This document shows, in pieces, positions 3,547-27,338 of a stretch of DNA of 64,000 nt. Each line of letters opens with the position of its first letter. The first letter of the stretch is position 1. Origin of the DNA: Bifidobacterium gallicum DSM 20093 = LMG 11596 (GTDB lineage: Bacteria > Actinomycetota > Actinomycetes > Actinomycetales > Bifidobacteriaceae); assembly GCF_000741205.1 (NCBI RefSeq), contig NZ_JGYW01000004.1:124001-188000 (forward strand), written 5' to 3'. The notes below the pieces were generated by a model. It had not been told where the DNA came from. It did not search any database and saw nothing but the letters and a program-made list of their open reading frames with translations. Position numbers and translations under genes: made by a program.

Positions 3547-6500
3547 GTGTCGCACACGGTGACGAACCGGGCTCAGGGTGTTGAAGGAACGGAACCTTCA
3601 GTTGCCATGACCGGCTCACGTAATACCAACAGGGGAGCAGCCAAGAAGGCTACTGCCCTTGTTTTGTCTATGGCCACATTGCTGGGTGGCCTGTCGCTTG
3701 GTGTTTCAACCGCACAAGCGGCGATCCCGACTACGAGCTACGACCGCACTCTTGGCAATGCCACATTCGAGGCGGCACGCCAGCAGAACGGCTTGGCCAA
3801 GGAGATGAGCTACGGCTCCATCCTGCATGCTTGGATGTGGTCGGCCAACACACTGAAGTCCAAGATGGCAGAGATTGCCGATGCAGGCTATACCACGATT
3901 CAGACAGTTCCGATTGCAGAAATCAAGGGACCTGTCCGCGGTATGCAATTCGACGAGAACTGGTACTTCGTGTATCAGCCCACTGGCACCAAGATTGGCA
4001 ACAAGGTTATTGGTACCGAGGCTGAAATTCAGGCTATGACGGCTGAAGCCCATAAGTACGGCATCCGCGTCATTGCCGACGGCGTTATCAACCACTTCTC
4101 CTCCGACTGGAACGCCATTGATCCCGAGTGGCAAGACAAGAACCTGTTTCACACGCGTAACGGCATTTGCGGTGGCGCAGATGGCGACAAGATCAATTAC
4201 GGCGAACGTTGGCAGGTCACTCAGTGCCATCTGTTGGGTCTGTGGGATTTGAACACGCAGAGCCAGGAAGTGTCCAACCGCATGCACGATTATCTGTCGC
4301 GTGCAGTGGCTGACGGTATTGACGGCTTCCGCTACGATGCGGCCAAGCACATTGAGCTTCCGAACGAATTCGCTACGTATTCTCCTTACTACGACACCAT
4401 CCTGCCGAACGGCGCCCAGTACCAGTATGGTGAGGTGCTGCAGGGTGACTCCGGTCTGAACGCAGCCGCATATCCGGCCCTGTTCGATAAGTACTCGACG
4501 AACGGCGGCGGTAACACCGCTTCCAAGTTCGGTGGTACTATCCGTGCTGCTATCAACTCGGGCCGCGTTTCTGCCTCCTCCATGCGTAACTTGCAGGGCG
4601 ATGGTGTGCGCGACAACCAGCTTGTCACTTGGGTTGAGTCGCACGATAACTACGCCAACAAGGAAATGGATGGCCACGGCGTTTCCTCGGCCATCTCGGC
4701 CGAAAAGATTCGTAAGGGCTGGGCCCTGATTGCATCACGTGCTGGTGGCGCTCCGCTGTTCTTCAACCGTCCGGTCGGTTCCGGTGGTCCTAGCCAGCCG
4801 CAGTTCTCTGAGCGGACCCAGCTGGGCTCCGCTGGCGATGACGAATGGAAGCATCCTGAGGTCAAGTGGGTCAACAAGTTCCGTAACGCTATGGAAGGCT
4901 CGCCTGAGAACCTGCAGAACTGCAACGGCGACCAGTCCTGTGTGACAATCGAACGTGGTATTGCTGATGGCAACAGCGGCAGCGACGGCCTCGTCGCTGT
5001 CAACCTGGGCGGCGGTGACAAGGATCTTGCCGGCATGTCGACCATCCTTGACGACGGTACCTATAAGGACCAGGTCAATGGCGGTTCCATCACTGTGTCG
5101 GGCGGCAAGATCACTTCCGGCCGCGCTGCCGGCAACAAGGTCAGCGTCTTCTGGAACAACGAAGGCGGCTCCAATATTGGTGCAGAGTCCATCAGCGCCG
5201 CTCCGATGAATACCACGTTCACGGGCAACGGTATCGAAGTCACACTGCGCGCACAGAACGCCACCGATTTGAAGTGGACGACTTCCGATGGCAAGTCGGG
5301 CACGTTCGCATCCGGCGAGAAGATCACGGTCGGTGCCTCGGCACAGGTCGGCGACACCATCACGTTGACCATTACGGGTAAGGGCACCGGCGCTGAAGGC
5401 AAGAGCCTCAAGCAGACCTATACCTACACGAAGACCGAGCGCTCGTCTCAGAACCTGGCCAAGTACTACACCACCAACACCACGGGTCAGAAGATCAAGA
5501 AGACGATCTCGGTTGATGGTGCTGCTGGTGACTGGGACAGCTCCATGCTGATCGCCCAGGGTACGGCCAACGATGATCCGCGTATTTACCGTGAAAACTC
5601 GATGTATGAGATGCCTATCGATCTCTATGCGCTTTACGGTACCTACGATGACAACAACCTGTACCTGATGTGGGAAATGACGAACGTCCAGGATGTCGTT
5701 GACCAAATGGACAACTATCCAATCGGCCGTCCTGCCCATGTGGAGAAGGGCCCTGCAATCTGGATCGCTCTGGACACGGGTCGTCCTGACAACCGTGTTG
5801 GCAAGAATGCCAATCTGCAAACTGGTGGCACCATCTGGGATTCTCGCATCTCTTGGGAGCAGAATGTCAACAACGTCATTGGCCTTGCTGTGAAGAAGGG
5901 CGAGAACGGTCCGTGGGTGTACGGCGGTGACGAAACCGGTCTGAGCGCTACAGCACTCTACGGTCCCGGTGCTGATCCGAAGTCGGGTACTCAGAAGAGC
6001 AACATCCAGTATGCTGCTGGAACCGGCCTGCTGAGCAAGTCCGTCATGGGTCTCGAAGGCGGTTGGGGTCACTACAACAACCGTCTGCCAGGCGACATGA
6101 AGAACGACAATGGTCCTTGGGTTGACTTCATGTCCAAGGGGCACAACCCCAGCACGCAGGATTCAATCTGCGAGATTGCAATTCCGCTCGAGGAACTCGG
6201 CATCTCTGCTGCTGACGTTGAGAAGACCGGTGTTGGCGTGCAGGTTGTGGCAACCATGGGTCTGTCCGGTATGGACTCCCTGCCTTACGATCTGACGGTC
6301 AATGACAACGCTGATCTGCCCGATACGCAGTCCCAGGAGAACAACTCTTACGAGAAGTCCGATGAGGATTCGTTCTCGGTGCCTATGGCCCGCATCGGCA
6401 ACGCTGGTGGCGAAGTAGAAATCATTCCGGTCGATTCTGTGACAATTGCCGGTGGCGACATCTCCATCGACCTTGGCACGTCTCGCACGGCTCAGGTTTC

Positions 6501-8364
6501 CGCTACGGTCAGCCCGGCTAACGCAACTTCCAAGAAGGTCACGTGGGCATCGTCGAACGAGGCTGTGGCCAAGATCGACAAGAATGGCAAGATCACGGCC
6601 TCCAAGGCTGGCACGACTACTATCACCGCAACGGCCGGTGGCAAGTCCGCTTCCATTAAGGTCACGGTGACTGGTGAGCTCGTAATCCCGACCACCACGA
6701 CGGTCTACTATCCGTCCGCAACCTACGGTGCTAACTCCACTTACCTGCATTACCGCGTGAATAAGAACGGTGCTGCTGGCACTTGGACCACGGTTCCTGG
6801 TGTGAAGATGGAAGCCGCTTGCGATGGCTGGGTCAAGTACACGGTTGACAACCCGAACCAAGACGAAGTCGAGTTCGTGATCAACAACGGTGCTGGCGCT
6901 TGGGATAACAACGGTGAAGCCAACTACAAGGGCACGGGTGAATCCCTGAAGCTCCAGAACGGCACGCTGACTGTTGACTCCGCTCCATGCGTGGTGGATG
7001 TGCCTGTCTCCTCGGTGTCGATTGCTGGTGGCGATTTCTCGCTGGCTGTGGATGCCACGAAGCAGCTTTCTGCTTCGGTTGCTCCGTCGAACGCGACGGA
7101 CAAGGTCGTGTCGTGGAAGTCGTCGGATGCGGCTGTCGCCACGGTTGACGCTTCGGGCAAGGTGATGGCGAAGAAGGCTGGTTCGGCCACGATTACGGCT
7201 TCGGCTGGTGGCAAGTCGTCGTCGGTGACGGTGACGGTGGTTTCGGCTTTGGTGCCGGTGTCGTCGGTGACGATTTCCCCGTCGTCGTTGTCGTTGAAGA
7301 AGGGTGAGTCGGGCCAGTTGACGGCCACGGTTGCCCCGTCGAACGCTTCGGACAAGACGGTGACGTGGCGTTCGAGCAATCCTGCTGTGGTGTCGGTTGA
7401 CGCGGATGGCAAGGTGACGGCGCTCAAGGCTGGTGTGGCCGCGGTGACGGCTACGGCTGGTGGTGTGGCGTCTTCGGCGATCGCGGTGTCGGTGACGGAG
7501 ACGACGGTGGTGCCGGTGACGGGTGTGCAGGTGTCCGATCCGGCGGATGGCAAGCTGGAGTTGACTGTTGGCGCTTCGCACCAGGTCAAGGCTTCGGTGA
7601 CCCCGTCGAACGCAACGGACCAAACAGTGTCGTATTCGTCGACCAACGCTTCGGTGGTGAGTGTCTCGTCGACCGGCGTGGTCACTGCGAAGACTGAAGG
7701 CACTGCAAACATCATTGTGTCCGCTTCGGGCCATGCTGCACTGGTGTCCGTGAAGGTGACACCGCGTAAGGTGCAGTTTACGGATGTGCCGGTGTCGGCG
7801 TGGCAGGCGTCTGATATTCAGTGGCTTGCTGACAATGCCATTTCGATGGGCAATGGTGATGGCACGTTCGGGTTTGGCAAGTCGTTGAACCGTCGTGACA
7901 TGGCTATTTTCCTGTATCGTTTGGCGAAGTTGAATGGTGACGCTTCGGCGGCGTCGTTCAAGCCTTCGGCTGCGGATTATGCTCGGTTCTCGGATGTCAA
8001 GCAGGGGTCGTTTGGTGCGACCGAGGTGTTGTGGTTGGCGTCCAAGGGTGTGATCAAGGGGTTCGAGGATGGTTCGTTCCGTGGGGACAAGTCGTTGAAC
8101 CGTCAGGATTCGGCGATTTACCTGTATCGTTTCGCGAAGGTGATGGGTGACGCTTCGGCGTCGTCGTTCAAGCCTTCGGCTGCGGATTACGCGCGGTTCT
8201 CGGATGTCAAGCAGGGTTCGTTTGGTGCCACGGAGATTTTGTGGTTGACCAGTGTGGGCATTGTCAAGGGCAACACGGACGGCACGTTCCGTGGTGGCAG
8301 CAACCTCACTCGTGAGGACATGGCCGTGTTCCTGCACCGCACACACAACCATCTGAACAAATAA
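3547..8364 (+). CDS. Surface alpha-amylase, GH13-CBM74-CBM25-Big2-SLH
   Basis: Secreted endo-acting starch hydrolase, 1605 residues. Order: signal peptide to about residue 58 (cut after AQA); GH13 barrel to about 535 with nucleophile D264 (GFRYDAAKH), acid/base E296 (YGEVLQ) and D367 (ESHDNY); an Ig/Fn3-like module to about 632; a region of about 320 residues (633-955) matching CBM74, the long starch-binding family of resistant-starch amylases (GDWDSSMLIAQG, YDDNNLYLMWEMTN); Big2; CBM25 (1047-1146, GAGAWDNNG); three Big2; three SLH repeats (1408-1605). The GTG at 3547 follows AGAAAGGA and aligns with the start of the third amylase (both begin V-S-H); ATG 3526 and 3511 are in-frame alternatives. 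SLH repeats should hold it on the cell wall. Closest in design to the RSD amylases of B. adolescentis. Confidence 0.93.
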   Translation: MSHTVTNRAQGVEGTEPSVAMTGSRNTNRGAAKKATALVLSMATLLGGLSLGVSTAQAAIPTTSYDRTLGNATFEAARQQNGLAKEMSYGSILHAWMWSANTLKSKMAEIADAGYTTIQTVPIAEIKGPVRGMQFDENWYFVYQPTGTKIGNKVIGTEAEIQAMTAEAHKYGIRVIADGVINHFSSDWNAIDPEWQDKNLFHTRNGICGGADGDKINYGERWQVTQCHLLGLWDLNTQSQEVSNRMHDYLSRAVADGIDGFRYDAAKHIELPNEFATYSPYYDTILPNGAQYQYGEVLQGDSGLNAAAYPALFDKYSTNGGGNTASKFGGTIRAAINSGRVSASSMRNLQGDGVRDNQLVTWVESHDNYANKEMDGHGVSSAISAEKIRKGWALIASRAGGAPLFFNRPVGSGGPSQPQFSERTQLGSAGDDEWKHPEVKWVNKFRNAMEGSPENLQNCNGDQSCVTIERGIADGNSGSDGLVAVNLGGGDKDLAGMSTILDDGTYKDQVNGGSITVSGGKITSGRAAGNKVSVFWNNEGGSNIGAESISAAPMNTTFTGNGIEVTLRAQNATDLKWTTSDGKSGTFASGEKITVGASAQVGDTITLTITGKGTGAEGKSLKQTYTYTKTERSSQNLAKYYTTNTTGQKIKKTISVDGAAGDWDSSMLIAQGTANDDPRIYRENSMYEMPIDLYALYGTYDDNNLYLMWEMTNVQDVVDQMDNYPIGRPAHVEKGPAIWIALDTGRPDNRVGKNANLQTGGTIWDSRISWEQNVNNVIGLAVKKGENGPWVYGGDETGLSATALYGPGADPKSGTQKSNIQYAAGTGLLSKSVMGLEGGWGHYNNRLPGDMKNDNGPWVDFMSKGHNPSTQDSICEIAIPLEELGISAADVEKTGVGVQVVATMGLSGMDSLPYDLTVNDNADLPDTQSQENNSYEKSDEDSFSVPMARIGNAGGEVEIIPVDSVTIAGGDISIDLGTSRTAQVSATVSPANATSKKVTWASSNEAVAKIDKNGKITASKAGTTTITATAGGKSASIKVTVTGELVIPTTTTVYYPSATYGANSTYLHYRVNKNGAAGTWTTVPGVKMEAACDGWVKYTVDNPNQDEVEFVINNGAGAWDNNGEANYKGTGESLKLQNGTLTVDSAPCVVDVPVSSVSIAGGDFSLAVDATKQLSASVAPSNATDKVVSWKSSDAAVATVDASGKVMAKKAGSATITASAGGKSSSVTVTVVSALVPVSSVTISPSSLSLKKGESGQLTATVAPSNASDKTVTWRSSNPAVVSVDADGKVTALKAGVAAVTATAGGVASSAIAVSVTETTVVPVTGVQVSDPADGKLELTVGASHQVKASVTPSNATDQTVSYSSTNASVVSVSSTGVVTAKTEGTANIIVSASGHAALVSVKVTPRKVQFTDVPVSAWQASDIQWLADNAISMGNGDGTFGFGKSLNRRDMAIFLYRLAKLNGDASAASFKPSAADYARFSDVKQGSFGATEVLWLASKGVIKGFEDGSFRGDKSLNRQDSAIYLYRFAKVMGDASASSFKPSAADYARFSDVKQGSFGATEILWLTSVGIVKGNTDGTFRGGSNLTREDMAVFLHRTHNHLNK

Positions 8365-8435
8365 GCCCAAACGTCGGTATACCGGCAACAATGACAGGAT
8401 AATTGGCTGATTACATAGCAGATATCTTTGTCGCC

Positions 8436-8470
8436 TAGGGGGCGAGACGGTAGTCCCGCCCCCTATTTTT
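8436..8470 (+). terminator. Intrinsic terminator of first amylase
   Basis: Arms of 13 bases (8436-8448 and 8453-8465, one mismatch) with a GGTA loop are followed by TTTTT. It ends transcription of the first amylase. It lies only 45 bases before the start of the second amylase, so that gene has a very short leader and probably its own promoter, or depends on read-through. Confidence 0.88.
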
Positions 8471-8514
8471 ACACATTATTCTTGTGGATACTCATTCTTG
8501 TAAGGAAGCAACGA

Positions 8515-11500
8515 ATGTCATTTTCTTCGTCTTTCCTCGCCATGAGGAAGAAAGCTATTGCTGGCTTGCTGGCAGTGGCCACAATGGGAGCAGGGCTAGC
8601 GGTATCCGTTTCGCAGCCAGAGGCCGCCCAGGCAGCAACGCGAGACAGCTACTCCGACACGATCGGCAATCCGTCGTTTGAGGCAGCCCGCAACAAGTAC
8701 GGCCTGACCAAGAACATGCGTGATGGTTCCACGTTGCATACGTTCATGTGGTCGTTCAAGACGATTACTGAGCATATGCCGGAAATCGCACAGGCCGGCT
8801 ATACGTCAATTCAGACGAACAATGTTTCGGCTGTCAAAGACAATAGTGAACTCGGCAAAGGCAACTGGTATCTCAACTGGTACTACATTTACCAGCCGAC
8901 CGACACGACCGTTGGCAACTACATCCTCGGTACTGCCGAAGAGTTCAAGACGATGTGCGATACCGCTCATCAGTATGGCGTGCGCGTCATCGTCGATGCT
9001 GTCGCCAACCATTTCACCTCCGACTTTGATGTGATCGAACCGGCATGGCAAGACAAATCCCTGTTCCATGTGAACAAGGGCAATATCAGCGATTACAACG
9101 ATCGTGAAGACTGCACGCAGAATCAGCTGTCGGGCCTGTGGGATCTCAATACGCAGAGCAAGGAAGTCGAAAACCGCATGGCCGACTTCTACAAGCAGGT
9201 CGTCGCGCTGGGTGCCGACGGTTTCCGTTATGATGCTGCAAAGCATATCGAGCTGCCGGGAGAATTCGGTGGCTCAACGTATTGGACCGGCATTCTGAAC
9301 AATGGTTCGCAGTACCAGTACGGTGAAGTGCTGCAAGACAAGAACGTGCGCGAAGTGGATTACGCGAACATGTTCTCGCAATCCTCGATCGGTGGCGGCG
9401 GTGTCACGGGTTCCGATTACGGCCAGGAAATGCGCAACTCGATGAACGACCGTTCGCTTTCTGCACGTTTCTTCTCCGACTACCGCATGGGCACCAGCCC
9501 CGACAAGATTGTCACCTGGATTGAATCGCACGACAATTACTGCGATCGCCAGTCCGAGAAGTTCACTGAAGAGCAGGTTCGCGGCGCCTATGCAACGATG
9601 AACGCACGCGGTGAGACGATGACGCTGTTCTTCAACCGCCCTTACGCTTCGGGTGGTACGCAGCCGTGGTTCTCTGAGAAGTCAAAGATCGGTGACGTTG
9701 GCGCCGACGATTGGAAGCAGCCTGGCATTGTCGCGTCGAACCATTTCCGTAACGCTATGGTTGGCAACGACATGAACACCGTCAACTGCGGCGGTGACCA
9801 GTGCGTCATGGTCGAGCGATACAAGAAGAACGGCAGCTCTGCCGATGACGGTCTGCTCGTCGCAACGACTGAACGTGGCGGTTCGTCAATCAATGGCATG
9901 AGCACGAAGCTCGACGACGGTGTGTATACCGATGAAGTCTCGGGCGCGAAGCTCACTGTTTCCGGCGGCAAGATTTCCGCCACTGAAATCGGCCCGAACA
10001 CGGTCGCCGCGTTCTACAACGCCAAGGTTGACACGACGCCGATTTCGTCCGCGACTGCCGCTCCTAATCAGGGTGTTATTGAAGACACGAAGAGCGTCAC
10101 GCTGCGTTCGTTCAATATGGCGAACGCCTCGTACAGCACGTCCGAAGGCGCTTCCGGTTCGTTCAAGGACGGCGACATCATCGAAATTGGCGGTTCTACC
10201 GGTTCCGGCGGCACCGTGACCGTCACCGTGAGCGGTACCGGCAACAACGGCAAGCAGGTGAACAAGACCTTCACCTACACGAAGGAAACAGTCACTCCAG
10301 TTGATACGTTGACGATTTCCGGCGACGGTGTCTCGAACAACACGCTCACTATCGATCTCGCGTCCGCCACGAGCGCGCAGCTTGAGGCAACGTATACTCC
10401 TGCGAACGCGACCGTCAAGAAGGTCACCTGGACTTCTTCTGATCCGACTGTTGCGACCGTCTCGTCGACGGGCGCTGTCGAGGCGATCAAGGCCGGCTCG
10501 ACTACAATCTCCGTGACTGCAGGTGACAAGACCACGTCGATTTCTGTGCGTGTGACTGGCGATATTCCCGTCGACCAGATGACAACTATTTATTACCCAT
10601 CTAGCACCTATGGCAAAGACTCCACCTATATCCATTACCGTGTCGGAGACGGCGCATGGACTGTGGCGCCTGGCGAAAAGATGAGTGAAGCATGCGATGG
10701 CTGGGTTTCCAAGCGCATCACGACAGGCGGCAAGGCCGTGACGTTCGATTTCAACAACGGTGCCGGCGCTTGGGACAACAACGGAGGCAAGGATTACACC
10801 GGTAAGGGCACGACCCTTGTGGTGGAGAAGGGTCAAATTGGCGTAACAGTGCCGTGCAAGACCACTCCGGATCCGGTTGTCGTGCCGGTTTCTTCGGTGT
10901 CGATTGCTGGTGGCGATTTCTCGCTGACGGAAGGCGCGTCGAAGCAGTTGTCTGCGACGGTTGCTCCTTCGAATGCGACGGACAAGGTCGTGTCGTGGAA
11001 GTCTTCGAATGCGACTGTCGCCACGGTTGACGCTTCGGGCAACGTGACTGCGAAGAAGGCTGGTACAGCTACAATCACGGCTACGGCTGGTGGCAAGTCG
11101 TCGTCGGTGACGGTCACTGTGTCGGCCGCTTCGGTTGATGTTCCTGTTGAGTCGGTGTTGGTGTCTCCGTCGTCGTTGGTGTTGAGGAGGGGTGAGTCGG
11201 GGCAGTTGTCGGCTTCGGTTGCCCCGTCGGATGCGTCGGACAAGTCGGTGGTGTGGTATTCGAGCAATCCTGCTGTGGCTTCGGTTGACGCTTCGGGCAA
11301 GGTGACGGCGCTCAAGGCTGGTGTGGCCGCGATCACGGCTTCGGCTGGTGGTGTGGTGTCGTCGGCGGTATCGGTGACGGTGACGGACACGGTGGTTCCG
11401 GTGACGGGTATCACGGTGGACGATCCGGCTGATGGCAAGCTGGGGTTGCAGGAGGGCGCGTCGAAGGTGATCCGCACGACGGTGACGCCGTGGAACGCGT

Positions 11501-12249: not shown

Positions 12250-12287
12250 TGTGACGGCGGCTTGCCGCCGTTGCCACCGGTTTTCTG

Positions 12288-12736: not shown

Positions 12737-15700
12737 GTGTCCCATCCTGCACCAGAATCGCGGGCGTCACAGGGTGTCAATGATGTGAATACATCGTGGC
12801 ATTCCACTGCCCGGACCATTGGCAAGAAGTCAACAGCCTTCGTGATTTCTGCAGCGACCATGCTTGGTGGCATGGCTGTTGTCACGAATACCGCGCAAGC
12901 CGCCAATGGACCCACCACCAGCTACGATCGCACACTCGGCAATCCCACGTTTGAGGCTGCGCGCCAAGCCAATGGCCTTGCCAAAGAGATGAGCTATGGC
13001 GCAATCCTTCACGCCTGGATGTGGTCGGCCAACACGATCAAAGCCCATATGGCTGAGATTGCCGATGCTGGCTATACCACCATCCAGACTGTTCCCATTT
13101 CTGAAATCAAGGGCCCCATGCATGGAGGCCAGTTCACTGAAAACTGGTATTACGTATATCAGCCTTCCGGCACCAAGATTGGCAACAAGGTCATTGGTAC
13201 CGAAGCTGAAATCAGGGCTATGACTGCTGAAGCCCATAAATATGGCATTCGAGTCATTGCTGACGGTGTGATCAACCATTTCACTGCGGATTGGAATGCC
13301 ATCGATCCTGAATGGCAGCGCAGCGAGTATTTCCACACGCGTACTGAAGGTAACTGCGGTGATAACGGTACTGCCATCAATTATAGTCAGCGTTGGCAGG
13401 TTACTCACTGCCATTTGCTGAGCTTGTGGGATCTGAACACTGAAAACCAGACCGTCGCCAACAAGATGAAGGACTATCTGGTTCGCGCAGTGGATGCCGG
13501 CATTGACGGTTTCCGTTATGATGCGGCGAAGCATATTGAGCTTCCAAACGAGTTCAGCACATATTCGCCTTACTACGACACGATTCTTCCCAACGGTGCA
13601 CAGTACCAGTATGGCGAAGTGCTCCAAGGCGACAACGGCCTGAACGCTCCGGCTTATCCTGCCCTGTTCTCCAAGTATTCAACGAATGGTGGCGGCAACA
13701 CCGCATCCAAGTTCGGCAATGCATTGCGTGGCGCCCTGCAAGGCTACAACCTGAACGCAGGCAACCTTTCCAACCTGCAAGGTGATGGTGTGCGCGACAA
13801 CCAGCTTGTCACCTGGGTTGAATCGCACGATACATATGCCAACACGAACGAGTATTCTTCGCAGTTGAATGCATGGCAGATGCGCATGGGCTGGGGTGTT
13901 GTGGCATCCAAGTCCGGTGGCGCTCCACTGTTCTTCAACCGTCCGGCCGGTTCCGGCGGTAGCAACCCCCGATTTGCCGAGCGCTCCTCGTTGGGTGATG
14001 CTGGCGATGACGAGTGGAAGCATCCAGAAGTTGTGGCGGTCAACCATTTCCGCAATGCCATGGAAGGCAACGCGGAATTTATGCGCAATTGCCAGGGCGG
14101 CAACCAGTGCCTGATGATTGAGCGTTACAAGACCGATGGCAACAGCAACAATGATGGTGTCACCGTTGTCAACATGGGTGGCGAGAAGAATCTCGCTGGC
14201 ATGGCCACCACGCTTGATGATGGCACATATACCGATCAGGTCTATGGCGGCACGCTGACGGTGCAGAACAAGAAGATCACTTCTGGTAACGCTCCTGCAG
14301 GCAAGATTGCCGTGTACTTCAATGGTTCCGCATCCAAGCGCGGTGTCGTTTCCGTGTCCGGCGCCAAGTCGTTCAAGACTGATACCACCACGGTTACGCT
14401 GAACTCCCGCAATGTGACCAATACCCGTTACACCACAAGCGAGGGCGCATCCGGCTCCTATACGGATGGACAGACCATCACGATTGGCCGTAACACCTCG
14501 TATGGCAGCTCGATTACCGTTACCGTGACAGGTACCTGCGAAGACGGCTCCCAAGTCACGGATTCGTTGACAGTTCTGAAGAAGGACCCGAATGCTGTGG
14601 TGAGCTACACCGCATATGCGAAGAAGCCGTCGACGTGGAGCAGCATTTATGCATATGCCTATGTCGATAACAACGCCACGGGCTCGAACGTCATTGAGAA
14701 TGCCGCTTGGCCTGGTGAGTTGATGACGGCTGAGTCGGATGCCTGCAATGGCACTGCCGATCAGGTTTATGAGATTCCTGAGGAAATGATTGAAGAAGCG
14801 GGCGATTCCCCAATCCGCATTATCTTCAATAATGGTGGCCCTGGCCAGATTGCCGGCAACAAGTTCCCAGGCGATGCCGTGTCGACTGATCCCGAGGATC
14901 ATGTGGACGCAGCAGGCCTCCAAATCGATGGTTCCTATGTGTGGGATGGCAACCTGACTGTTTCCTCGACTTCGTGGACTGAGGCAGCATGCGCACCAAT
15001 CGTGGTCAATTCCATCTCCATTAACGGTGCGAACAACGGTCAACTCTCGCTTGATCTGGCAGATGCTCCGACCGCCAAGCTGACGGCTGTGGTTGATCCC
15101 GCCAATGCCAAGGTTTCGTGGTCTTCGTCCAACGCCAAAGTGGTTTCGGTCAACAATGGTGTCGTCACTGGTGTTGCCAAGGGTACGGCCACTGTCACCG
15201 CTAAGGCTGGCGACAAGTCCGCTTCCGTTACCGTGACGGTGACGGGCGAACCTCCTGTGGTGGCCTCCACGACCATCTATTACCCGGCTTCGAAGTTTGG
15301 TGCTAACTCCACTTACCTACATTACCGCGTGAACAAGAACGGTGCTGCCGGCACTTGGACCACGGTTCCTGGTGTGAAGATGGAAGCCGCTTGCGATGGC
15401 TGGGTCAAGTACACGGTTGACAACCCGAACCAAGACGAAGTCGAGTTCGTGATCAACAACGGTGCTGGCGCTTGGGACAACAACGGTAAGAAGAACTACA
15501 CCGGTACCGGCGCCAACCTCGTTATCGAGAACGGCAAGGTAGGAACTATCGCTCCTTGTGTGGTCGAGGTTCCGGTTTCTTCGGTGTCGATTGCTGGTGG
15601 CGATTTCTCGCTGACGGAAGGCGCGTCGAAGCAGTTGTCTGCGACGGTTGCTCCTTCGAATGCGACGGACAAGGTCGTGTCGTGGAAGTCGTCGGATGCG

Positions 15701-16933
15701 GCTGTCGCCACGGTTGACGCTTCGGGCAAGGTGACGGCGAAGAAGGCTGGTACTGCCACGATTACGGCTTCGGCTGGTGGCAAGTCGTCGTCGGTGACGG
15801 TGACGGTGGCTTCGGCTTCGGTGCCGGTGTCGTCGGTGACGATTTCCCCGTCGTCGTTGTCGTTGAAGAAGGGTGAGTCGGGCCAGTTGACGGCCACGGT
15901 TGCCCCGTCGAACGCTTCGGACAAGACGGTGACGTGGCGTTCGAGCAATCCTGCTGTGGTGTCGGTTGACGCGGATGGCAAGGTGACGGCGCTCAAGGCT
16001 GGTGTGGCCGCGGTGACGGCTACGGCTGGTGGTATGGCGTCTTCGGCGATCGCGGTGTCGGTGACGGAGACGACGGTGGTGCCGGTGACGGGTGTGCAGG
16101 TGTCCGATCCGGCGGATGGCAAGCTGGAGTTGACTGTTGGCGCTTCGCACCAGGTCAAGGCTTCGGTGACCCCGTCGAACGCAACGGACCAAACAGTGTC
16201 GTATTCGTCCACGAACGCCTCAATCGCTTCGGTATCCACTTCGGGTGTAGTGACGGCGAAGGCGCAGGGTTCGGCTTCGATCATCGTGTTCGCGAATGGT
16301 CATGCGGCCACGGTTGAAGTGAAGGTGACACCGCGTAAGGTGCAGTTTACGGATGTGCCGGTGTCGGCGTGGCAGGCGTCTGATATTCAGTGGCTTGCTG
16401 ACAATGCCATTTCGATGGGCAATGGTGATGGCACGTTCGGGTTTGGCAAGTCGTTGAACCGTCGTGACATGGCTATTTTCCTGTATCGTTTGGCGAAGTT
16501 GAATGGTGACGCTTCGGCGGCGTCGTTCAAGCCTTCGGCTGCGGATTATGCTCGGTTCTCGGATGTCAAGCAGGGGTCGTTTGGTGCGACCGAGGTGTTG
16601 TGGTTGGCGTCCAAGGGTGTGATCAAGGGGTTCGAGGATGGTTCGTTCCGTGGGGACAAGTCGTTGAACCGTCAGGATTCGGCGATTTACCTGTATCGTT
16701 TCGCGAAGGTGATGGGTGACGCTTCGGCGTCGTCGTTCAAGCCTTCGGCTGCGGATTACGCGCGGTTCTCGGATGTCAAGCAGGGTTCGTTTGGTGCCAC
16801 GGAGATTTTGTGGTTGACCAGTGTGGGCATTGTCAAGGGCAACACGGACGGCACGTTCCGTGGTGGCAGCAACCTCACTCGTGAGGACATGGCCGTGTTC
16901 CTGCACCGCACACACAACCATCTGAACAAATAA
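12737..16933 (+). CDS. Surface alpha-amylase, GH13-CBM26-CBM25-Big2-SLH
   Basis: Secreted GH13 amylase of 1398 residues starting at GTG after AGGAAAGGAA. Order: signal peptide ending near NTAQA (about 54), GH13 barrel with D262 (GFRYDAAKH), E294 (YGEVLQ) and D365 (ESHDTY), Ig/Fn3-like module (about 535-618), CBM26-like module (about 620-752: an aromatic-rich start, WPGELM, then IIFNNGG), Big2 (755-837), CBM25 (842-942, GAGAWDNNG), three Big2 (944-1198), three SLH repeats (1200-1398). The GH13 part is much closer to the first amylase than to the second, but a CBM26 plus Big2 stands where the first has CBM74. CBM25 and everything after it are nearly the same DNA as in the first amylase. Its own promoter region precedes it. 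Confidence 0.93.
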   Translation: MSHPAPESRASQGVNDVNTSWHSTARTIGKKSTAFVISAATMLGGMAVVTNTAQAANGPTTSYDRTLGNPTFEAARQANGLAKEMSYGAILHAWMWSANTIKAHMAEIADAGYTTIQTVPISEIKGPMHGGQFTENWYYVYQPSGTKIGNKVIGTEAEIRAMTAEAHKYGIRVIADGVINHFTADWNAIDPEWQRSEYFHTRTEGNCGDNGTAINYSQRWQVTHCHLLSLWDLNTENQTVANKMKDYLVRAVDAGIDGFRYDAAKHIELPNEFSTYSPYYDTILPNGAQYQYGEVLQGDNGLNAPAYPALFSKYSTNGGGNTASKFGNALRGALQGYNLNAGNLSNLQGDGVRDNQLVTWVESHDTYANTNEYSSQLNAWQMRMGWGVVASKSGGAPLFFNRPAGSGGSNPRFAERSSLGDAGDDEWKHPEVVAVNHFRNAMEGNAEFMRNCQGGNQCLMIERYKTDGNSNNDGVTVVNMGGEKNLAGMATTLDDGTYTDQVYGGTLTVQNKKITSGNAPAGKIAVYFNGSASKRGVVSVSGAKSFKTDTTTVTLNSRNVTNTRYTTSEGASGSYTDGQTITIGRNTSYGSSITVTVTGTCEDGSQVTDSLTVLKKDPNAVVSYTAYAKKPSTWSSIYAYAYVDNNATGSNVIENAAWPGELMTAESDACNGTADQVYEIPEEMIEEAGDSPIRIIFNNGGPGQIAGNKFPGDAVSTDPEDHVDAAGLQIDGSYVWDGNLTVSSTSWTEAACAPIVVNSISINGANNGQLSLDLADAPTAKLTAVVDPANAKVSWSSSNAKVVSVNNGVVTGVAKGTATVTAKAGDKSASVTVTVTGEPPVVASTTIYYPASKFGANSTYLHYRVNKNGAAGTWTTVPGVKMEAACDGWVKYTVDNPNQDEVEFVINNGAGAWDNNGKKNYTGTGANLVIENGKVGTIAPCVVEVPVSSVSIAGGDFSLTEGASKQLSATVAPSNATDKVVSWKSSDAAVATVDASGKVTAKKAGTATITASAGGKSSSVTVTVASASVPVSSVTISPSSLSLKKGESGQLTATVAPSNASDKTVTWRSSNPAVVSVDADGKVTALKAGVAAVTATAGGMASSAIAVSVTETTVVPVTGVQVSDPADGKLELTVGASHQVKASVTPSNATDQTVSYSSTNASIASVSTSGVVTAKAQGSASIIVFANGHAATVEVKVTPRKVQFTDVPVSAWQASDIQWLADNAISMGNGDGTFGFGKSLNRRDMAIFLYRLAKLNGDASAASFKPSAADYARFSDVKQGSFGATEVLWLASKGVIKGFEDGSFRGDKSLNRQDSAIYLYRFAKVMGDASASSFKPSAADYARFSDVKQGSFGATEILWLTSVGIVKGNTDGTFRGGSNLTREDMAVFLHRTHNHLNK

Positions 16934-16939
16934 GCCCAG

Positions 16940-16961: not shown

Positions 16962-16986
16962 TTAAGCGTGTGAACATGTCATCGCC

Positions 16987-17019: not shown

Positions 17020-17185
17020 CATATTCCGGCCATGATTATGAACGGCAGGCAAAAGAAATGGGAAATGTAAAACAATTGTGCACATATGCCCACACATTGC
17101 AAATATTTGGAATAAAGTAGCTTGCAAAGTGGTTGAATAATGGAGGATAAGTTGCAATATAACGTAGTATTGTAAGGAAGAAATA

Positions 17186-17213
17186 TTGTGGGAAAGCTTT
17201 ATTTCCCTATATA
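17186..17213 (+). promoter_or_regulatory. Candidate promoter of the LRR-SLH gene
   Basis: TTGTGG (17186-17191) and TATATA (17208-17213) are separated by 16 bases. Transcription would start only about 10-12 bases before the ATG at 17232, giving a very short leader that still contains the AAGGTGG ribosome site. The surrounding 200 bases are AT-rich and hold other weaker matches. Confidence 0.45.
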
Positions 17214-17231
17214 TAACTCAAGGTGGTGAAG

Positions 17232-20200
17232 ATGAGAAGGACTATGGGGGAAGGCCCTACTCGCGCGATTGCAGCGGTTTTATCCAGCGTTTTTGCTGCA
17301 GCTTCATTTATTGGCGTGGTTAATCATGCATTCGCCCAGGAGCAAGACAATGTTGTCGCCTCGGAATGCGCGGTTGGTAGCAATACTTATACGCAGTGTA
17401 TGCCAGACAAGAATTTGGCATCCGTAGTGGCCAAGGCTGCAGGTGCATCTGTGGGCGATGTCATTAGTGAGCAGGCGCGTGCGTCTGTGACTGAAATCAA
17501 TGCGCGTAATGCCAACATCCAGGATTTGACTGGACTGGGCACGTTTACGTCGCTTGAACATGTGCAACTGTCCGACAACAATATCGAGTCGTTGAAGCCG
17601 TTGTCGGCCTTGACCACATTGAAGTCGTTCGAGGCATACAATAACGCCATAGTCAGTATCGATCCATTGAAGAACAACACCTCGTTGGAAACGCTTGGTG
17701 TTGGTGACAACAAGCTGGATAATATCTCGGTGCTGTCGAATATGCCGAATCTGACGTCGGTCAATATTTCGCATAACAACGTTTCTTCAATCCAGCCTTT
17801 GGCTTCGGCTTCCAAGTTGGAGTGGCTCTGGGCTTCTTCGAATGTCATTACTGATGCCACGCCAGTCAATGGTCTCACCGCATTGAAGGGCGCTGATATC
17901 AGCAGCAACACTATTGCCACGGCAAGCGGCGTGACGGCTGACCCACCGAAGTACTTGGTGATGACGGGCAATGTCAACCACTACAACCGTACCGTGGAAT
18001 ATGGCGGATCCATCACGGTTCCTATGCCTACCGGTTATGATGGCAAGCCGATTGTGCCTAGCGGCATCAACAACAACGGTACCTATGATGAGGCAACCGG
18101 TTCGGTGACGTGGCCAAACAATATCTATTCGGGTATTGGGCTTATTGCCACCTATACCAGCCAGGGCGGTGGTGTTTCTGGAGATAGACCATTCTCGGGC
18201 ATTGTACGTGTGGATGTGACCATTCAGGGCTCTGAATACCCTGAAGATCCTTCACCAATCCAGGATCCGGTTTGGATCAAGCGTGCCAAGGAAAAGCCGA
18301 CCCCTACGCCGCTTGCCGCTACCACATGCACACCAGACCAATCCACATTTGCTGACTGCTTTGCTGACGCGAAGTTGGCTGCGAAAGTGGCTGAAGCTGC
18401 CAAGGCGGCGGTGACTGATGTGGTGACGCAGCAAGTGCTCGACAGCGTTACCGAGTTGTATGTCAATGGTGCCGGTATCACATCATTGGCTGGTCTTGAA
18501 CATTTGACCAACCTGCGCACGATTCACGCTTCCAATAATGCCATCGACAATATTGAGCCGTTGCGTGATTTGACGCACTTGTATGATGTGCAGATTTACA
18601 ACGCGCGTGTGACCGATGTTTCCCCGCTGGCCAACAAGCCGGAATTGTGGGGCTTGGGCATGGGCAACAATTACATTGAGAATTTTGCCGCCATGACCGA
18701 CGTGCCCAAGCTGGCTTGGGCGGATATTTACGACAACCTGATCAGTGATTTGAGCTTTGTGCGCCAGTGGCCCACACTCAATGCATTGTGGGTGTCGGGC
18801 AATCCGTTCAAGGACGTGTCCCCGCTGGCCGATGTCAAGGATTTGCGCCGCATCCAGTTGGAAAGCAACTCCATTGAAGACATGTCGCCGTTGGTCAATA
18901 CAACGCCAACCGAATACTCGATGAACGACAACCAAACCATCCGCCGTGATGATATTACCGCGGATGAGGCTGGCAGCGTTTCGATGCTGTCGGTCAAGGG
19001 GCGCCAAGGCAATTACCTCAAGCCAAAGACCATGTCTCCCGAAGGTGGCGTATTTGATGCCACTACTGGAAAGGTGACGTGGAACAACGTCAAGAATAGT
19101 GGCATCTATCAGTTCACGTTCAGCGAGTCGGATACCCAAGATTATTTGTACAGCGGCAAGGTTCAAGCCAATGTCACGGTGGAACATAACGACAAGACGC
19201 CGCCGCAGTTCAATGGTGTATACGATACCAATGTCACGCTTGGTGAGAAGTACGACTGGATGTATGGTGTGACAGCCACTGATGACCAGGACGGTGATAT
19301 CACCGACCGCATTGTGATTCGTAAGAATGATCTCAACGTCAACGTTGCCGGCACGTATGGCATCCGCTATTACGTGGAAGACAGTGCAGGCAACGGCACT
19401 TGGGCTGGTCGCAAGGTCACGGTTTCCGATGCCACAATTACCAAGATCAAGGTGTGGGATAAGGAAACGCAGGCTGGCACCAAACCGGATTTGGGTATTG
19501 CGTCCGTGGAATGGAGCAACGGCCAGACAACGTATGAACCCGTTGTTTGGGATGCCATTACCGAAAGCCAGTATGCCAAGCCGGGCAAATTTGAGGTGCA
19601 TGGTTTGGTTCGTGGCAATCATGACGTGAAGTGCACGGTTACAGTCAAAGCGGTGCCGGTGCCCGCCGAGTCCGTAGTAGTCAAGGGCGAAGGTGTAAGC
19701 GATGGAAAGCTGAAGATGATGGCGCAGTCGGTGCATAACGTCACCGCCAGGCCAATGCCCGCGAACTCGACGGATACCAAGGTGACTTGGTTGAGCTCCG
19801 ATGAGTCCATTGCCACAGTTAGTGTGAACGGTTATATCCGCACCACCACCAAGACGGGAACTGTGAAGATCACGGCGAAGATTGGTCAGAAGGAATCGTC
19901 CATCACGGTCACAGTGCGCGACCGGTTCAAGGATGTTCCCGCGAATGCGCAATTCGCCGATGCGCTCGACTGGTTGTATACGGTTGGTATCACTCAGGGC
20001 AATTCCGATGGCACGTTTGGGTATGGCCAAACGTTGACTCGTCAAGACATGGCTGTGTTCATCTACCGTTTGGCCAAGCTGGAGGGTGACGAAAGCGCGA
20101 TCAACTTCAAGCCCACGGATAAGGATTACACCCGTTTCAAGGATGTGAAGAAGGACAGCTTTGGCGCCAAGGAAATCCTTTGGATGGCCGCGAAGGGTAT

Positions 20201-20513
20201 CACTTTGGGTAATCCGGATGGAACATTCAAAGGCAGTGCCAAGCTCACGCGTCAGGACGCTGCAATCTTCCTGTACCGTTTGGCCAAGTTGGAAGGCTGC
20301 AAGTCTGCAAAGACGTTTGCTCCTACGGATGAGGATTATGCCAAGTTCAAGGATGTGAACAAAGACACGTTCGCGTCCAAGGAGATTCTGTGGATGGCGT
20401 CCGAGCACATTACGAATGGCAACTCGGATGGCACATTTGGCGGTACCAGCCGCCTTATGCGACAGGATATGGGTGTGTTCCTCAAGAGGACCCATGACGC
20501 AATTCAGAAATAA
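17232..20513 (+). CDS. Internalin-like leucine-rich-repeat surface protein with SLH anchor
   Basis: 1093 residues, ATG after AAGGTGG; GTGs 6 and 9 bases upstream are alternatives. A signal peptide ends near HAFA (about 35). Two halves each begin with a Cys-containing cap (CMPDKNLASVV; CFADAKLAAKV) and carry 22-residue internalin-type LRRs (about 95-235 and 400-560; pattern LxxLxxLxxNxI, for example HVQLSDNNIESLKPLSAL). Then come a DUF5011-like Ig domain (about 645-720, DDQDGDI), a Big4-like domain (VEWSNGQTTYEP), one Big2 and three SLH repeats (about 893-1093, LTRQDMAVF). Such LRRs bind protein or glycan partners; here adhesion to host, food particle or other cells is the best guess. The SLH tail is related to those of the amylases but clearly diverged in sequence, unlike the near-identical amylase tails. 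Confidence 0.88.
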   Translation: MRRTMGEGPTRAIAAVLSSVFAAASFIGVVNHAFAQEQDNVVASECAVGSNTYTQCMPDKNLASVVAKAAGASVGDVISEQARASVTEINARNANIQDLTGLGTFTSLEHVQLSDNNIESLKPLSALTTLKSFEAYNNAIVSIDPLKNNTSLETLGVGDNKLDNISVLSNMPNLTSVNISHNNVSSIQPLASASKLEWLWASSNVITDATPVNGLTALKGADISSNTIATASGVTADPPKYLVMTGNVNHYNRTVEYGGSITVPMPTGYDGKPIVPSGINNNGTYDEATGSVTWPNNIYSGIGLIATYTSQGGGVSGDRPFSGIVRVDVTIQGSEYPEDPSPIQDPVWIKRAKEKPTPTPLAATTCTPDQSTFADCFADAKLAAKVAEAAKAAVTDVVTQQVLDSVTELYVNGAGITSLAGLEHLTNLRTIHASNNAIDNIEPLRDLTHLYDVQIYNARVTDVSPLANKPELWGLGMGNNYIENFAAMTDVPKLAWADIYDNLISDLSFVRQWPTLNALWVSGNPFKDVSPLADVKDLRRIQLESNSIEDMSPLVNTTPTEYSMNDNQTIRRDDITADEAGSVSMLSVKGRQGNYLKPKTMSPEGGVFDATTGKVTWNNVKNSGIYQFTFSESDTQDYLYSGKVQANVTVEHNDKTPPQFNGVYDTNVTLGEKYDWMYGVTATDDQDGDITDRIVIRKNDLNVNVAGTYGIRYYVEDSAGNGTWAGRKVTVSDATITKIKVWDKETQAGTKPDLGIASVEWSNGQTTYEPVVWDAITESQYAKPGKFEVHGLVRGNHDVKCTVTVKAVPVPAESVVVKGEGVSDGKLKMMAQSVHNVTARPMPANSTDTKVTWLSSDESIATVSVNGYIRTTTKTGTVKITAKIGQKESSITVTVRDRFKDVPANAQFADALDWLYTVGITQGNSDGTFGYGQTLTRQDMAVFIYRLAKLEGDESAINFKPTDKDYTRFKDVKKDSFGAKEILWMAAKGITLGNPDGTFKGSAKLTRQDAAIFLYRLAKLEGCKSAKTFAPTDEDYAKFKDVNKDTFASKEILWMASEHITNGNSDGTFGGTSRLMRQDMGVFLKRTHDAIQK

Positions 20514-20577
20514 AAATTGCTGATCTGCTGATTTGCTGAGCTGTTGAGCGGAAGCAAAAAAGCACGATACAAAAACA

Positions 20578-20622
20578 CAAGGGCTGCTCTGTGCTGCGTA
20601 ACGCAACACAGAGCAGCCCTTG
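20578..20622. terminator. Bidirectional terminator between convergent genes
   Basis: Sixteen-base perfect arms (20578-20593 and 20607-20622, containing GGGCTGCTCTGTG) enclose a small inner TGCG/CGCA hairpin. A-rich sequence lies on the left, giving a U-run for the minus-strand transcript. It serves the LRR gene and the convergent glycosyltransferase. Confidence 0.85.
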
Positions 20623-20643
20623 CTTGTGTGGGGAAAGCGGGCC

Positions 20644-21681
20644 CTAGATGCGCCGGTGGTCACGCAACTTGGAGACGGCTGTAAGAGCCGGCTGACAATG
20701 CAAATAAATGGGCGTGACCTTCAACATGTTGGTCAGCGTCATGCGGCGAACGCCCAGTTTTTTGATGCGGCTCGTCATGTACTTGCGTGTGGAGCGCACG
20801 AAAGCGCGGTAGGAAGAGGGTCGATCAAACTGCTGTTTGGACTCGCTGGCCCAAATGATAGCGGCCGAAAGATAACGCACCGACCAGTTGAGTTCCTTTT
20901 CGAGCAGCTCGGGATAGCGCTGTTGTGCGAAAATGTCAATCGCCTTGATGTCTTTGACCGTGTCGGCGCTCATGGCCGGCGGCTTGCGGTCGAGAATCGA
21001 GTTGGAACGCACGCGGTAGTTATATAAACAAACTGGCAGAAAATACACGGCGTTGGCGGCGTCATAGAGTTTGTATGTGGTTCCCATGTCTTCCATGAGT
21101 TGGTTGAGCGGGAAACGGATGCCGTCATACACGGAACGCTTGGCAAAAATGGACCACGAGAAATTTTGAATCTTGTCATTCCACAGTTCGGTCAACGCCT
21201 CAGCGCTGGAACGGCGTCCCTCGGCCGGGAATTTCTCCGAATCTTTGGAGGGAAAGACGTGACTGCCGTCCTCGTTGGCTGAGTTGTAGGCGATGACAAC
21301 CATATCTGAGTCGGTGTCCTGGGAGGTGCGCAACGCGGTCTGCACGAGCTGCGGCTCAATCCAGTCGTCGGAATCCACAAAGTACACATACTCGCCGGAA
21401 GCGCGCTCGAGCCCGTAATTGCGTGCGTCTGACAGGCCGCCGTTCGGCTTGTGCAGCGCGATGATGCGCGAATCCCGGCGCGCCCACTCATCCACCATCG
21501 CGTGGCAGTTGTCTTTGGAACCGTCGTCAACGAGCAGAATCTCCAGATTGGCATACGTCTGATTGACGATGGATTCTACGCACTGATCAAGGAACGCTTC
21601 CACCCCATATATGGGAACAATGACGGAAACTAACGGATTGCTGTGCTGATGTTCTTGCTGAGTTGTCACGGCATACCTCAT
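20644..21681 (-). CDS. Glycosyltransferase family 2
   Basis: 345 residues with a GT-A fold: VSVIVPIYGVEAFLDQCV at about residue 18, VDDGSKD, the SDARNYGLE motif, and the metal/nucleotide motif DSDDW. It should transfer a sugar from a nucleotide donor to a lipid-linked glycan on the cytoplasmic side. It is read away from the pyruvyl transferase gene and towards the LRR gene. The ATG at 21681 has a weak ribosome site; a GTG at 21669 preceded by GAGGT is an alternative. Donor and linkage cannot be predicted. Confidence 0.88.
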   Translation of the reverse strand: MRYAVTTQQEHQHSNPLVSVIVPIYGVEAFLDQCVESIVNQTYANLEILLVDDGSKDNCHAMVDEWARRDSRIIALHKPNGGLSDARNYGLERASGEYVYFVDSDDWIEPQLVQTALRTSQDTDSDMVVIAYNSANEDGSHVFPSKDSEKFPAEGRRSSAEALTELWNDKIQNFSWSIFAKRSVYDGIRFPLNQLMEDMGTTYKLYDAANAVYFLPVCLYNYRVRSNSILDRKPPAMSADTVKDIKAIDIFAQQRYPELLEKELNWSVRYLSAAIIWASESKQQFDRPSSYRAFVRSTRKYMTSRIKKLGVRRMTLTNMLKVTPIYLHCQPALTAVSKLRDHRRI

Positions 21682-21819
21682 CTATTTCTAGAACCGGATT
21701 TCAGTATAGCGTTGCACGGGCGAACATCAATGAACGGGGGTGCGGTGGGTAAAAGATTCTCTAATAAATATAGTCAATTGAATGCTGTGATTTCTGGGGT
21801 TTCTATACCCTTATTCTGT

Positions 21820-21829
21820 GGGGGGGGGG
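21820..21829 (+). repeat. G10 homopolymer in divergent intergenic region
   Basis: Ten consecutive G in the 286-base spacer between the GT2 gene (minus) and the pyruvyl transferase gene (plus), 138 bases before the latter's start. Runs this long are rare in the window and are prone to slipped-strand length change. A -10-like TATGAT lies at 21912-21917, so the tract would be upstream of that promoter; its effect is unknown. Confidence 0.7.
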
Positions 21830-21967
21830 TATGACAGCTGAAAAGAAATGTGCGATTTCAGTAATAATTGCAAACCTGTAAGATGCTGTATCCCTTCGTA
21901 CTACCCCTCGTTATGATAGAGTTTATCGGTTGCAGATTGCGTCGGTGAATGAAGAGGGCGGTTTGGT

Positions 21968-23038
21968 GTGGATAAACGTGCGGCATTCAAGCTGAAGCTC
22001 GGAGCTTCGCGTGTGGGCCGACTATCAAATATGTCTGACGTGATGAAGGGGTATGGCAGCCACCGCAACGAGTTCATGGCGTTGTCTAGTGATCGGCGCA
22101 CGGCGTTCGTCATTGGTACGGCCAACTACGCGAATCTGGGCGACCTGGCCATCTCGGAAGCGCAGATGCAGTATGTGCGGCGTTATTTTGATGGCGATGT
22201 GATGGAAATTCAGACCACAAAATTCTGGGAATATGAACTGTGGTTGCGGCGTGCAATGCGCCCCAATGACCTTATTTTGTTGCAAGGCGGCGGCAACATG
22301 GGGGATTTGTATTATTGGTTCGAATTTGAGCGTTGCGCAATCGCTGAATGTTTCCCGGACCAGCGCATCATCATGTTTCCTCAAACTATCTCGTATAGTT
22401 CAGACGATTCGGAGTTGTTGGCATATGCCAAGCAAGCGTATGGCCGCTGTTCTGATTTGCATTTGTTTGCGCGCGAGCATATTTCCGCACAGAAAATGGC
22501 TGAGGAGTTTCCCACCACTGATGTGGAACTGGTGCCCGATATTGTGCTGACGCTCGACCCGACACCTTTTGTTCCACGCCACGTTTCACGGTGCGGTCTG
22601 GCGATGGTGCTGCGTAATGATGAGGAACGCAGTTTGTCTGATGAGGATTGGCAGATGCTGTTCAGCGCGGCTGAAGAATCCGGGTTGCCTGTCACGACGG
22701 CCGATACGGTGCTGCCGGATCAGGACGTCAGCATTGAGGGGCGCACGCTGCTGCTGTCTGACATATTGACGACGTTTGCATCCGCACAATGTGTGGTGAC
22801 AGATCGCTTGCACGGCATGATTTTCGCCGCGATCACTGAAACCCCTTGCGTGGTGCTGTCAAATTCCAACCACAAAATACGCGGAGTGTATCAGTGGATC
22901 AAGGATCTGCCTTATATCGCATTCATTGAATCCGCACAAGAAGCACGGGCCGCTTTGCGCAAAGTCATGAACGCTCCCACGACGTATCCGCGTGATCGCA
23001 TATTGCAACAGTTTGAGGCATTGCGAGCGTTGCTATAA
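21968..23038 (+). CDS. Polysaccharide pyruvyl transferase family protein
   Basis: 356 residues with the features of the CsaB/WcaK-type pyruvyl transferase family: a start like GTANYANLGDLAI, LLQGGGNMGDLY, a central MFPQTI, and the C-terminal VTDRLHGMIFA signature. Members transfer pyruvate from phosphoenolpyruvate to a sugar to form a ketal, giving a negative charge to EPS or secondary wall polymer. In Bacillus, CsaB-type pyruvylation creates the ligand for SLH domains, which makes the nearby four SLH genes notable. The start is GTG at 21968 after GAGGGCGG; the first 30 or so residues are not part of the domain, so later ATGs are possible. It heads a run of co-directional EPS genes. Confidence 0.9.
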   Translation: MDKRAAFKLKLGASRVGRLSNMSDVMKGYGSHRNEFMALSSDRRTAFVIGTANYANLGDLAISEAQMQYVRRYFDGDVMEIQTTKFWEYELWLRRAMRPNDLILLQGGGNMGDLYYWFEFERCAIAECFPDQRIIMFPQTISYSSDDSELLAYAKQAYGRCSDLHLFAREHISAQKMAEEFPTTDVELVPDIVLTLDPTPFVPRHVSRCGLAMVLRNDEERSLSDEDWQMLFSAAEESGLPVTTADTVLPDQDVSIEGRTLLLSDILTTFASAQCVVTDRLHGMIFAAITETPCVVLSNSNHKIRGVYQWIKDLPYIAFIESAQEARAALRKVMNAPTTYPRDRILQQFEALRALL

Positions 23039-27333: not shown

Positions 27334-27338
27334 ACGCC

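Follow-up and report, generated by a model that had tools for sequence, protein, structure and literature searches.

SLH-tailed amylases beside an exopolysaccharide-locus pyruvyl transferase in Bifidobacterium gallicum, and a second SLH and pyruvyl transferase locus in the same genome

How could starch-degrading enzymes be held at the surface of a bifidobacterium when their genes lie inside an exopolysaccharide (EPS) locus? This question is raised by a 64,000-nucleotide stretch of the Bifidobacterium gallicum genome (contig C4, positions 124001-188000, of 2.0 Mb in 12 contigs; the whole stretch is hereafter called the window, and positions are counted within it), in which four consecutive genes encode proteins ending in three S-layer homology (SLH) repeats and are followed by a polysaccharide pyruvyl transferase gene. 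Anchoring of SLH domains through pyruvate is established (PMC6081394, PMC6801904, and PMC6030368), and we put the probability at about 0.5 that two SLH-pyruvate anchoring channels exist in this genome, with the local EPS holding the enzymes of the window. The features concerned are listed below; type II designates one of the two SLH families described in the next section.

3511-8364, plus strand: GH13 amylase 1 of 1617 amino acids (aa), with GH13, CBM74-like, CBM25, four Big_2, and three SLH (open reading frame (ORF), Pfam, structure-profile match, motifs)
7774-8355, plus strand: type II SLH trimer of amylase 1, motifs NRRD, NRQD, and TRED (alignment, trimer tree)
8428-12249, plus strand: GH13 amylase 2 of 1273 aa, with GH13, CBM25, four Big_2, and three SLH (ORF, Pfam, motifs)
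11659-12240, plus strand: type II SLH trimer of amylase 2 (alignment, trimer tree)
12737-16933, plus strand: GH13 amylase 3 of 1398 aa, with GH13, CBM26, CBM25, four Big_2, and three SLH (ORF, Pfam, motifs)
16343-16924, plus strand: type II SLH trimer of amylase 3 (trimer tree)
17223-20513, plus strand: predicted surface protein of 1096 aa with leucine-rich repeats (LRR), Ig-like, and three SLH (ORF, Pfam)
19923-20504, plus strand: type II SLH trimer of the LRR protein, motifs TRQD, TRQD, and MRQD (alignment, trimer tree)
20644-21681, minus strand: family 2 glycosyltransferase (GT2), separating the SLH genes from that of the pyruvyl transferase (Pfam)
21968-23038, plus strand: Pvg1p-like polysaccharide pyruvyl transferase (PF04230), with NxGD, GGG, R169, D191, R280, and H282 kept (Pfam, structure-profile match, alignment)
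23260-31119, plus strand: start of the following EPS block, with EpsG, Wzz/ATPase, three glycosyltransferases, and a Wzx-like protein (Pfam)

The succession of four proteins ending in three SLH repeats, three of them being GH13 amylases with starch-binding modules, and the presence of a pyruvyl transferase gene about 1.5 kb downstream, inside an EPS cluster, had been claimed in a preliminary description of this DNA, and both were confirmed by the ORFs and Pfam (the PF04230 gene starts 1.45 kb after the LRR gene, with the minus-strand GT2 gene in the gap); the start given there, 3547, falls within the ORF starting at 3511. In all four proteins, PF00395 recognized three SLH stretches above the family cut-off, with whole-protein E-values of 2.2e-25 to 9.5e-25, and the repeats are thus real and not a product of chance. 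At the level of profiles, the SLH trimers match the Sap and SbsB structures. Pfam also indicated GH13 (PF00128), CBM25, and four Big_2 stretches in amylases 1-3, CBM26 additionally in amylase 3, and LRRs in the fourth protein, and residues 565-1006 of amylase 1 match the CBM74 structure 7uwv (E 2.4e-51). The GH13 catalytic motifs (GFRYDAAKH, GEV, and ESHD) are intact in 3/3 amylases, and a hydrophobic, signal-like stretch is located in the N-terminal region of each of them. We propose that the three amylases and the LRR protein would be exported and kept on the cell surface by their C-terminal SLH trimers, without a covalent bond.

Two SLH families and their binding grooves

The tree of 65 trimers was divided into 24 trimers of type II, i.e., those of EPS-locus amylases and LRR proteins, and 41 trimers of type I. 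Type II is present in eight genomes (G000, G022, G026, G029, G033, G038, G061, and G062), and 62 further segments from G016, G023, G047, G052, and G066 were all nearest to type I. This typing refers to the 65 fetched full-length trimers, the other SLH matches of G029, G033, G038, G062, and G000 being typed in part, and a larger tree, of 117 rows, supported the separation of the 24 type II trimers as a whole at 0.55 only. The genomes G066 (contig C12) and G047 (contigs C13, C22, and C27) gave 23 and 25 SLH profile matches, respectively, several of them in runs.

In SpaA, SLH-Arg43 and SLH-Gly29 contact the pyruvate, and Trp13 stacks on the sugar (PMC6081394). Position 29 is Gly in 65/65 of the bifidobacterial trimers, in all three repeats, and position 43 is Arg in 65/65, 65/65, and 63/63 of the first, second, and third repeats, respectively (the third counted where the residue is present). 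Trp13 is not kept: placed by alignment, with shifts possible, the position is W in 3/24 type II first repeats and mostly P in type I, where its zone reads T-P-H, the same zone being mostly F/W/H in type II (mostly F in its repeats 2 and 3). SLH-30 is mostly W/Y/F in type I and Asn in 14/24 first and 20/24 third repeats of type II. As Gly29 and Arg43 are invariant and the Trp13 and SLH-30 positions varied, the grip on pyruvate is therefore kept and the sugar-facing side differs. The trimers would thus bind a ketal-pyruvate glycan, the Arg and Gly of each groove gripping the pyruvate as in SpaA and Sap.

The motifs found in the place of TRAE are those noted before (NRRD/NRQD/TRED in the amylases and TRQD/TRQD/MRQD in the LRR protein), but the idea attached to them, that their divergence may mean another ligand, was dismissed, since the Arg is kept and the altered Glu makes no contact with the ligand in SpaA (PMC6081394). 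Judging from the alignment, the changed Trp13 and SLH-30 positions would be the better argument for a different ligand. An explanation in which the SLH modules bind a non-pyruvylated ligand, e.g., modified peptidoglycan, as OmpM of Negativicutes does, can draw on the missing sugar-stacking Trp13 and on the finding that polyaminated peptidoglycan can be bound by SLH domains (PMC10628300); nevertheless, the invariance of Arg43 and Gly29 and the presence of PF04230 in 18/18 SLH-positive genomes make it very unlikely.

Pyruvyl transferases and SLH proteins across the genus

A scan of the genome revealed SLH also on contigs C3 and C2 and a second, divergent PF04230 gene, named A1, on C3, by which the window enzyme is ruled out as the sole pyruvyl transferase. 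Against PF04230 (gathering score 25.3), the window enzyme scores 111.5 bits (E 9e-32) and A1 40.4 bits, and neither of them reaches the cut-off of the CsaB equivalog TIGR03609 (213.1; 34.7 and 35 bits, respectively). TIGR03609 matches 14/14 A1 members (best E 4e-10, far under the cut-off), and A1 is, by its family, classed as a CsaB-like pyruvyl transferase. Residues 47-305 of the window enzyme match the Pvg1p structure 5ax7 (E 3.2e-13), in an alignment that includes the Arg, RxH, and Lys region; no match to 5ax7 was found for A1 and for the enzyme of the G022 type, described below. Across 21 sequences of three groups (A1, window type, and G022/G061 type), NxGD, GGG, one Arg, one Asp, and R-x-H are invariant, and the Arg and R-x-H, placed by motif, probably correspond to R148, R306, and H308 of CsaB, which are residues of its phosphoenolpyruvate site (PMC10435577).

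The sample of the genus comprised 112 genomes, of which 17 were SLH-positive by Pfam and 18 by a genus profile (the 18 were used). A1 is present in 15/112 genomes, i.e., in 14/18 SLH-positive and 1/94 SLH-negative ones ([[14,4],[1,93]]; Fisher p 1.8e-13, uncorrected and, like the other Fisher values, ignoring kinship). Any PF04230 gene was found in 64/112 genomes (18/18 and 46/94, respectively; Fisher p 1.4e-5), and the survey of bifidobacteria proposed in the preliminary description, when run in the genus, therefore revealed no genome with SLH and without any pyruvyl transferase. For PF04230 genes other than A1, the association was not significant (13/18 and 45/94; Fisher p 0.07, uncorrected). 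On an rpoB tree (quick, based on a single gene, and with uneven composition flagged in many rows), A1 and type I SLH gave eight independent pairs, with 6.5 changing in the same way and 0 in the opposite one (median p 0.031). The corresponding values were 5.5 and 0 (median p 0.0625) for A1 and any SLH, 2.0 and 0.2 in seven pairs (p 0.5) for SLH and non-A1 PF04230, and 3.2 and 0 (p 0.25) for SLH and any PF04230. EPS-type transferases are thus unsupported as a general partner of SLH.

The C3 locus (L078) contains, in this order, genes for a sulfatase-family protein, a DUF4012 protein, a GlfT2-like galactofuranosyltransferase, a membrane protein, a GH25-SLH protein, A1, a CAP/Flg_new-SLH protein, an MFS protein, and a Wzt-like ABC ATPase. 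In the A1 locus of B. mongoliense, a Wzm-type permease and UDP-galactopyranose mutase are encoded beside Wzt. Since a Wzt homolog is present in 110/112 genomes of the genus (E <= 1e-50, 43-100% identity), A1 and the accompanying SLH genes appear to have been added to a core export locus. Of the 14 Bifidobacterium A1 loci examined, 13 contain an SLH gene or a fragment of one at 0-4.6 kb from A1, and in G006 and G030 A1 overlaps a large family 2 glycosyltransferase gene by 4 nt. The A1 of an Aeromicrobium record has an SLH gene ending 33 bp in front of it and a GlfT2-like gene beginning 70 bp behind it; SLH and A1 are 156 bp apart in a Collinsella record; and no SLH was found within the fetched stretch of the Alloscardovia criceti A1 locus. 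Because the GlfT2 domain cut-off was passed by just 2/7 neighboring glycosyltransferases tested (those of Aeromicrobium and Collinsella, with two more sub-threshold), galactofuranan is only a suggestion for the acceptor of A1; pyruvylated galactans and 5,6-pyruvyl-Galf occur elsewhere (PMC6801904). We infer that type I SLH proteins (GH25 and CAP), together with the CsaB-like A1 and its galactan-type export locus, may constitute a second channel, parallel to that of the window.

Several side observations concern A1 and its surroundings. In G095, A1 is in two pieces on a 4.7-kb contig, with no SLH in view, and A1-like genes (L140, L141, and L144; E ~1e-80) are carried by two genomes from the same class, for which SLH was not found at the threshold. 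Short SLH pieces at L078:10212-10502 (C3) and L080:8459-8932 (C2), in ORFs of 97 aa and 158 aa, respectively, resemble remnants of SLH genes. In the A1 locus of B. mongoliense (L090:1102-3537), the GH25 protein ends, by eye, in choline-binding-like repeats where its relatives carry SLH, an apparent replacement of the anchor. In a first look at 396 genomes of the phylum, with few candidates scored per genome, SLH was found in 48, A1 in five, and both only in G000, and A1 is unsupported as a general actinobacterial partner of SLH.

These results bear on an alternative in which all SLH proteins, including the amylases, bind a wall glycan pyruvylated by A1, and the EPS transferase decorates EPS only. 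It would account for the way A1 tracks SLH, both in the counts and on the rpoB tree, for the close positions of the two genes in Bifidobacterium, Aeromicrobium, and Collinsella, and for G029, in which type II SLH is accompanied by A1 alone. It accommodates less easily the type II SLH without A1 in G022 and G026, the type I SLH without A1 in G061 and G068, the A1 of G049 (B. mongoliense), where no SLH was found, and the way in which type II SLH covaries with the EPS block, described below. The export loci fetched from G022, G026, G061, and G068 contained no A1 remnants at E <= 1, and one weak match to the A1 profile (E 2e-5) was the EPS-locus transferase of G061. On balance, we regard this alternative as rather doubtful.

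Coupling of the amylase anchors to the EPS block

In 8/8 type II genomes, the amylases sit in the EPS locus, and where the left flank is seen (G022, G061, and G026), two conserved genes precede them, one of which is Wzz-like (this upstream flank is conserved, with 87-100% for the Wzz-like and 80-93% for the DUF4012-type protein). A PF04230 gene of the same EPS locus is located 1-5.5 kb from an SLH gene in 7/8 of these genomes. It is of the window type in G000, G026, G033, G038, and G062 (48-94% identical) and of another type in G022 and G061 (50% mutual identity and no blastp match to the window type). In G022 and G026, which have only type II SLH and no A1, the EPS-locus gene is the only PF04230 gene.

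In G061 and G033, sisters on the rpoB tree (98% identical), the bodies of amylase 3 share 89% identity, against 45% for the SLH modules, and the transferase type differs between the two genomes. Similarly, an amylase body shared by G022 and G038 is 84% identical and its SLH 49%, with the transferase types likewise differing. The change sets in within the Ig-like stalk, about 150 residues ahead of the SLH, and the break lies within both amylase genes, with 83-94% identity of the bodies (conserved stretch) and 43-65% of the SLH across transferase types, forming two islands in G022. Over seven genomes, type II SLH distance correlated with transferase distance (r 0.87), versus 0.27 with body and 0.22 with rpoB distance; the partial r given body and rpoB was 0.88 (permutation p 0.004, 20/5040). 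Without G033 the value was 0.72 (p 27/720, 0.0375), and without G000 it was 0.89 (p 5/720, 0.007). As the SLH distance follows the transferase distance and the EPS block differs likewise, the anchors are coupled to the EPS type. The ligand of type II would most likely be the EPS of the neighboring block, with the Pvg1p-like enzyme (21968-23038) adding the pyruvate and the anchor modules being kept matched to the local EPS; the pyruvyl group is suggested as the reason for this coupling by analogy with the SLH-CsaB paradigm.

The preliminary description had proposed that the local glycan, when pyruvylated, serves as the SLH anchor. This part is favored by the invariant Arg and Gly, the nearby PF04230 genes, and the co-divergence of transferases and SLH modules, but it is A1, on another contig, that tracks SLH presence on the tree. 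The implied role of the EPS transferase as the partner of SLH stands less well, since no significant association is left once A1 is excluded and G029 has SLH amylases but no EPS-locus transferase.

Several points weigh against local anchoring to the EPS. G029 carries type II SLH, with A1 as its only PF04230 gene. The covariation test was devised post hoc, after the discordance had been seen, with n = 7, two being one close pair. SLH covaries with the EPS glycosyltransferase block as a whole, with the pyruvyl transferase inseparable from its neighbors, and the amylase bodies also depart from rpoB (approximately unbiased test, p 0.002 and 0.006). Type II changes just three times on the tree, too few for a test against the transferase, and linked exchange with conversion between SLH copies could yield covariation without function.

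The latter would apply if the SLH tails were hitch-hiking with a serotype region that recombines and at whose edge they lie, being exchanged and homogenized with the EPS block with no mutual binding. Such an explanation fits the linkage of 1-6 kb, the covariation of the whole block, and the conversion evident in the window, where amylases 1 and 3 do not differ in their final 591 coding bases and amylase 2 is 98.6% identical to both, so the amylase tails have been homogenized (the tail of the LRR gene has 60-61% DNA identity with them). In G022, however, the conserved body of the second amylase stands between the SLH of the first one and the block, and a single tract would be insufficient, though conversion between copies could suffice. 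We consider hitch-hiking unlikely.

An extension of local EPS anchoring would be capsule-typed anchors, i.e., SLH tails exchanged to fit the neighboring pyruvylated EPS, a second SLH family working with the CsaB-like enzyme and a galactofuranan-type wall glycan, and two non-crossing address systems per cell, with the EPS serotype deciding which enzymes stay on the surface. We offer it tentatively, at somewhat less than even odds. If true, the EPS locus would be an enzyme-display system in which the coat tethers resistant-starch degradation in gut bifidobacteria and the coat type sets the surface enzyme repertoire. Near-identical amylases with different SLH tails beside different pyruvyl transferases would then provide a natural experiment on SLH specificity, and A1 would be an actinobacterial CsaB candidate with a likely non-ManNAc acceptor.

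As for the rest of the EPS locus, Pfam indicated EpsG, Wzz/ATPase, glycosyltransferases, Wzx, UDP-Glc dehydrogenase, and rhamnose genes. Two like-built Wzz/ATPase proteins are encoded in this one region (24485-26008 and 47547-49052), and a single ORF (44962-46491) fuses dTDP-4-dehydrorhamnose epimerase and RmlD domains. The G+C content, 0.52-0.59 before 32000, drops to 0.38-0.39 at 34000-40000, a sign that glycosyltransferase genes there may have been imported. Phage records gave no match to positions 20000-24000.

Comparison with known systems

Dockerin amylosomes and sortase-anchored amylases degrade starch at the cell surface. The window proteins differ from them in that no dockerin was found in the Pfam results for the cluster and no LPxTG within the last 60 residues of the amylases.

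For B. globosum 45, a cluster of amylases carrying S-layer homology domains was described in 2026 (PMC13271388); it has in common with the window a set of three CBM-bearing GH13 proteins, with CBM74 in one of them, as well as CBM25 and S-layer homology; in the available main text, the string "pyruv" does not occur and no link to an EPS locus or exchange of anchors was found. An amylolytic enzyme with S-layer homology is also represented by the Anoxybacillus (Bacillota) amylopullulanase (PMC3709733), from which the window differs by a three-enzyme cluster in an actinobacterial EPS locus. Two SLH proteins of BB-12 are mentioned in PMC10057886, and the pyruvyl transferase of a B. longum strain is discussed in that context, so the pairing of SLH and pyruvyl transferase in bifidobacteria has already been touched upon. 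The A1-SLH cassette, the two SLH families, and the anchor-EPS covariation were not found in the open-licence PMC literature, as far as its available text extends.

With the SpaA (Paenibacillus alvei)/Sap system, in which CsaB pyruvylates a secondary cell-wall polymer, the bifidobacteria share the three SLH repeats, Gly29 and Arg43, and PF04230 in every SLH-positive genome. Their trimers differ in Trp13 and SLH-30, both enzymes fall below the CsaB cut-off, and the loci are of EPS and galactan type, not those of a ManNAc polymer. Finally, the window enzyme resembles, by its profile match, Pvg1p of fission yeast, a galactose-specific pyruvyl transferase (PMC6030368), and differs from it in being bacterial and encoded in an EPS locus.

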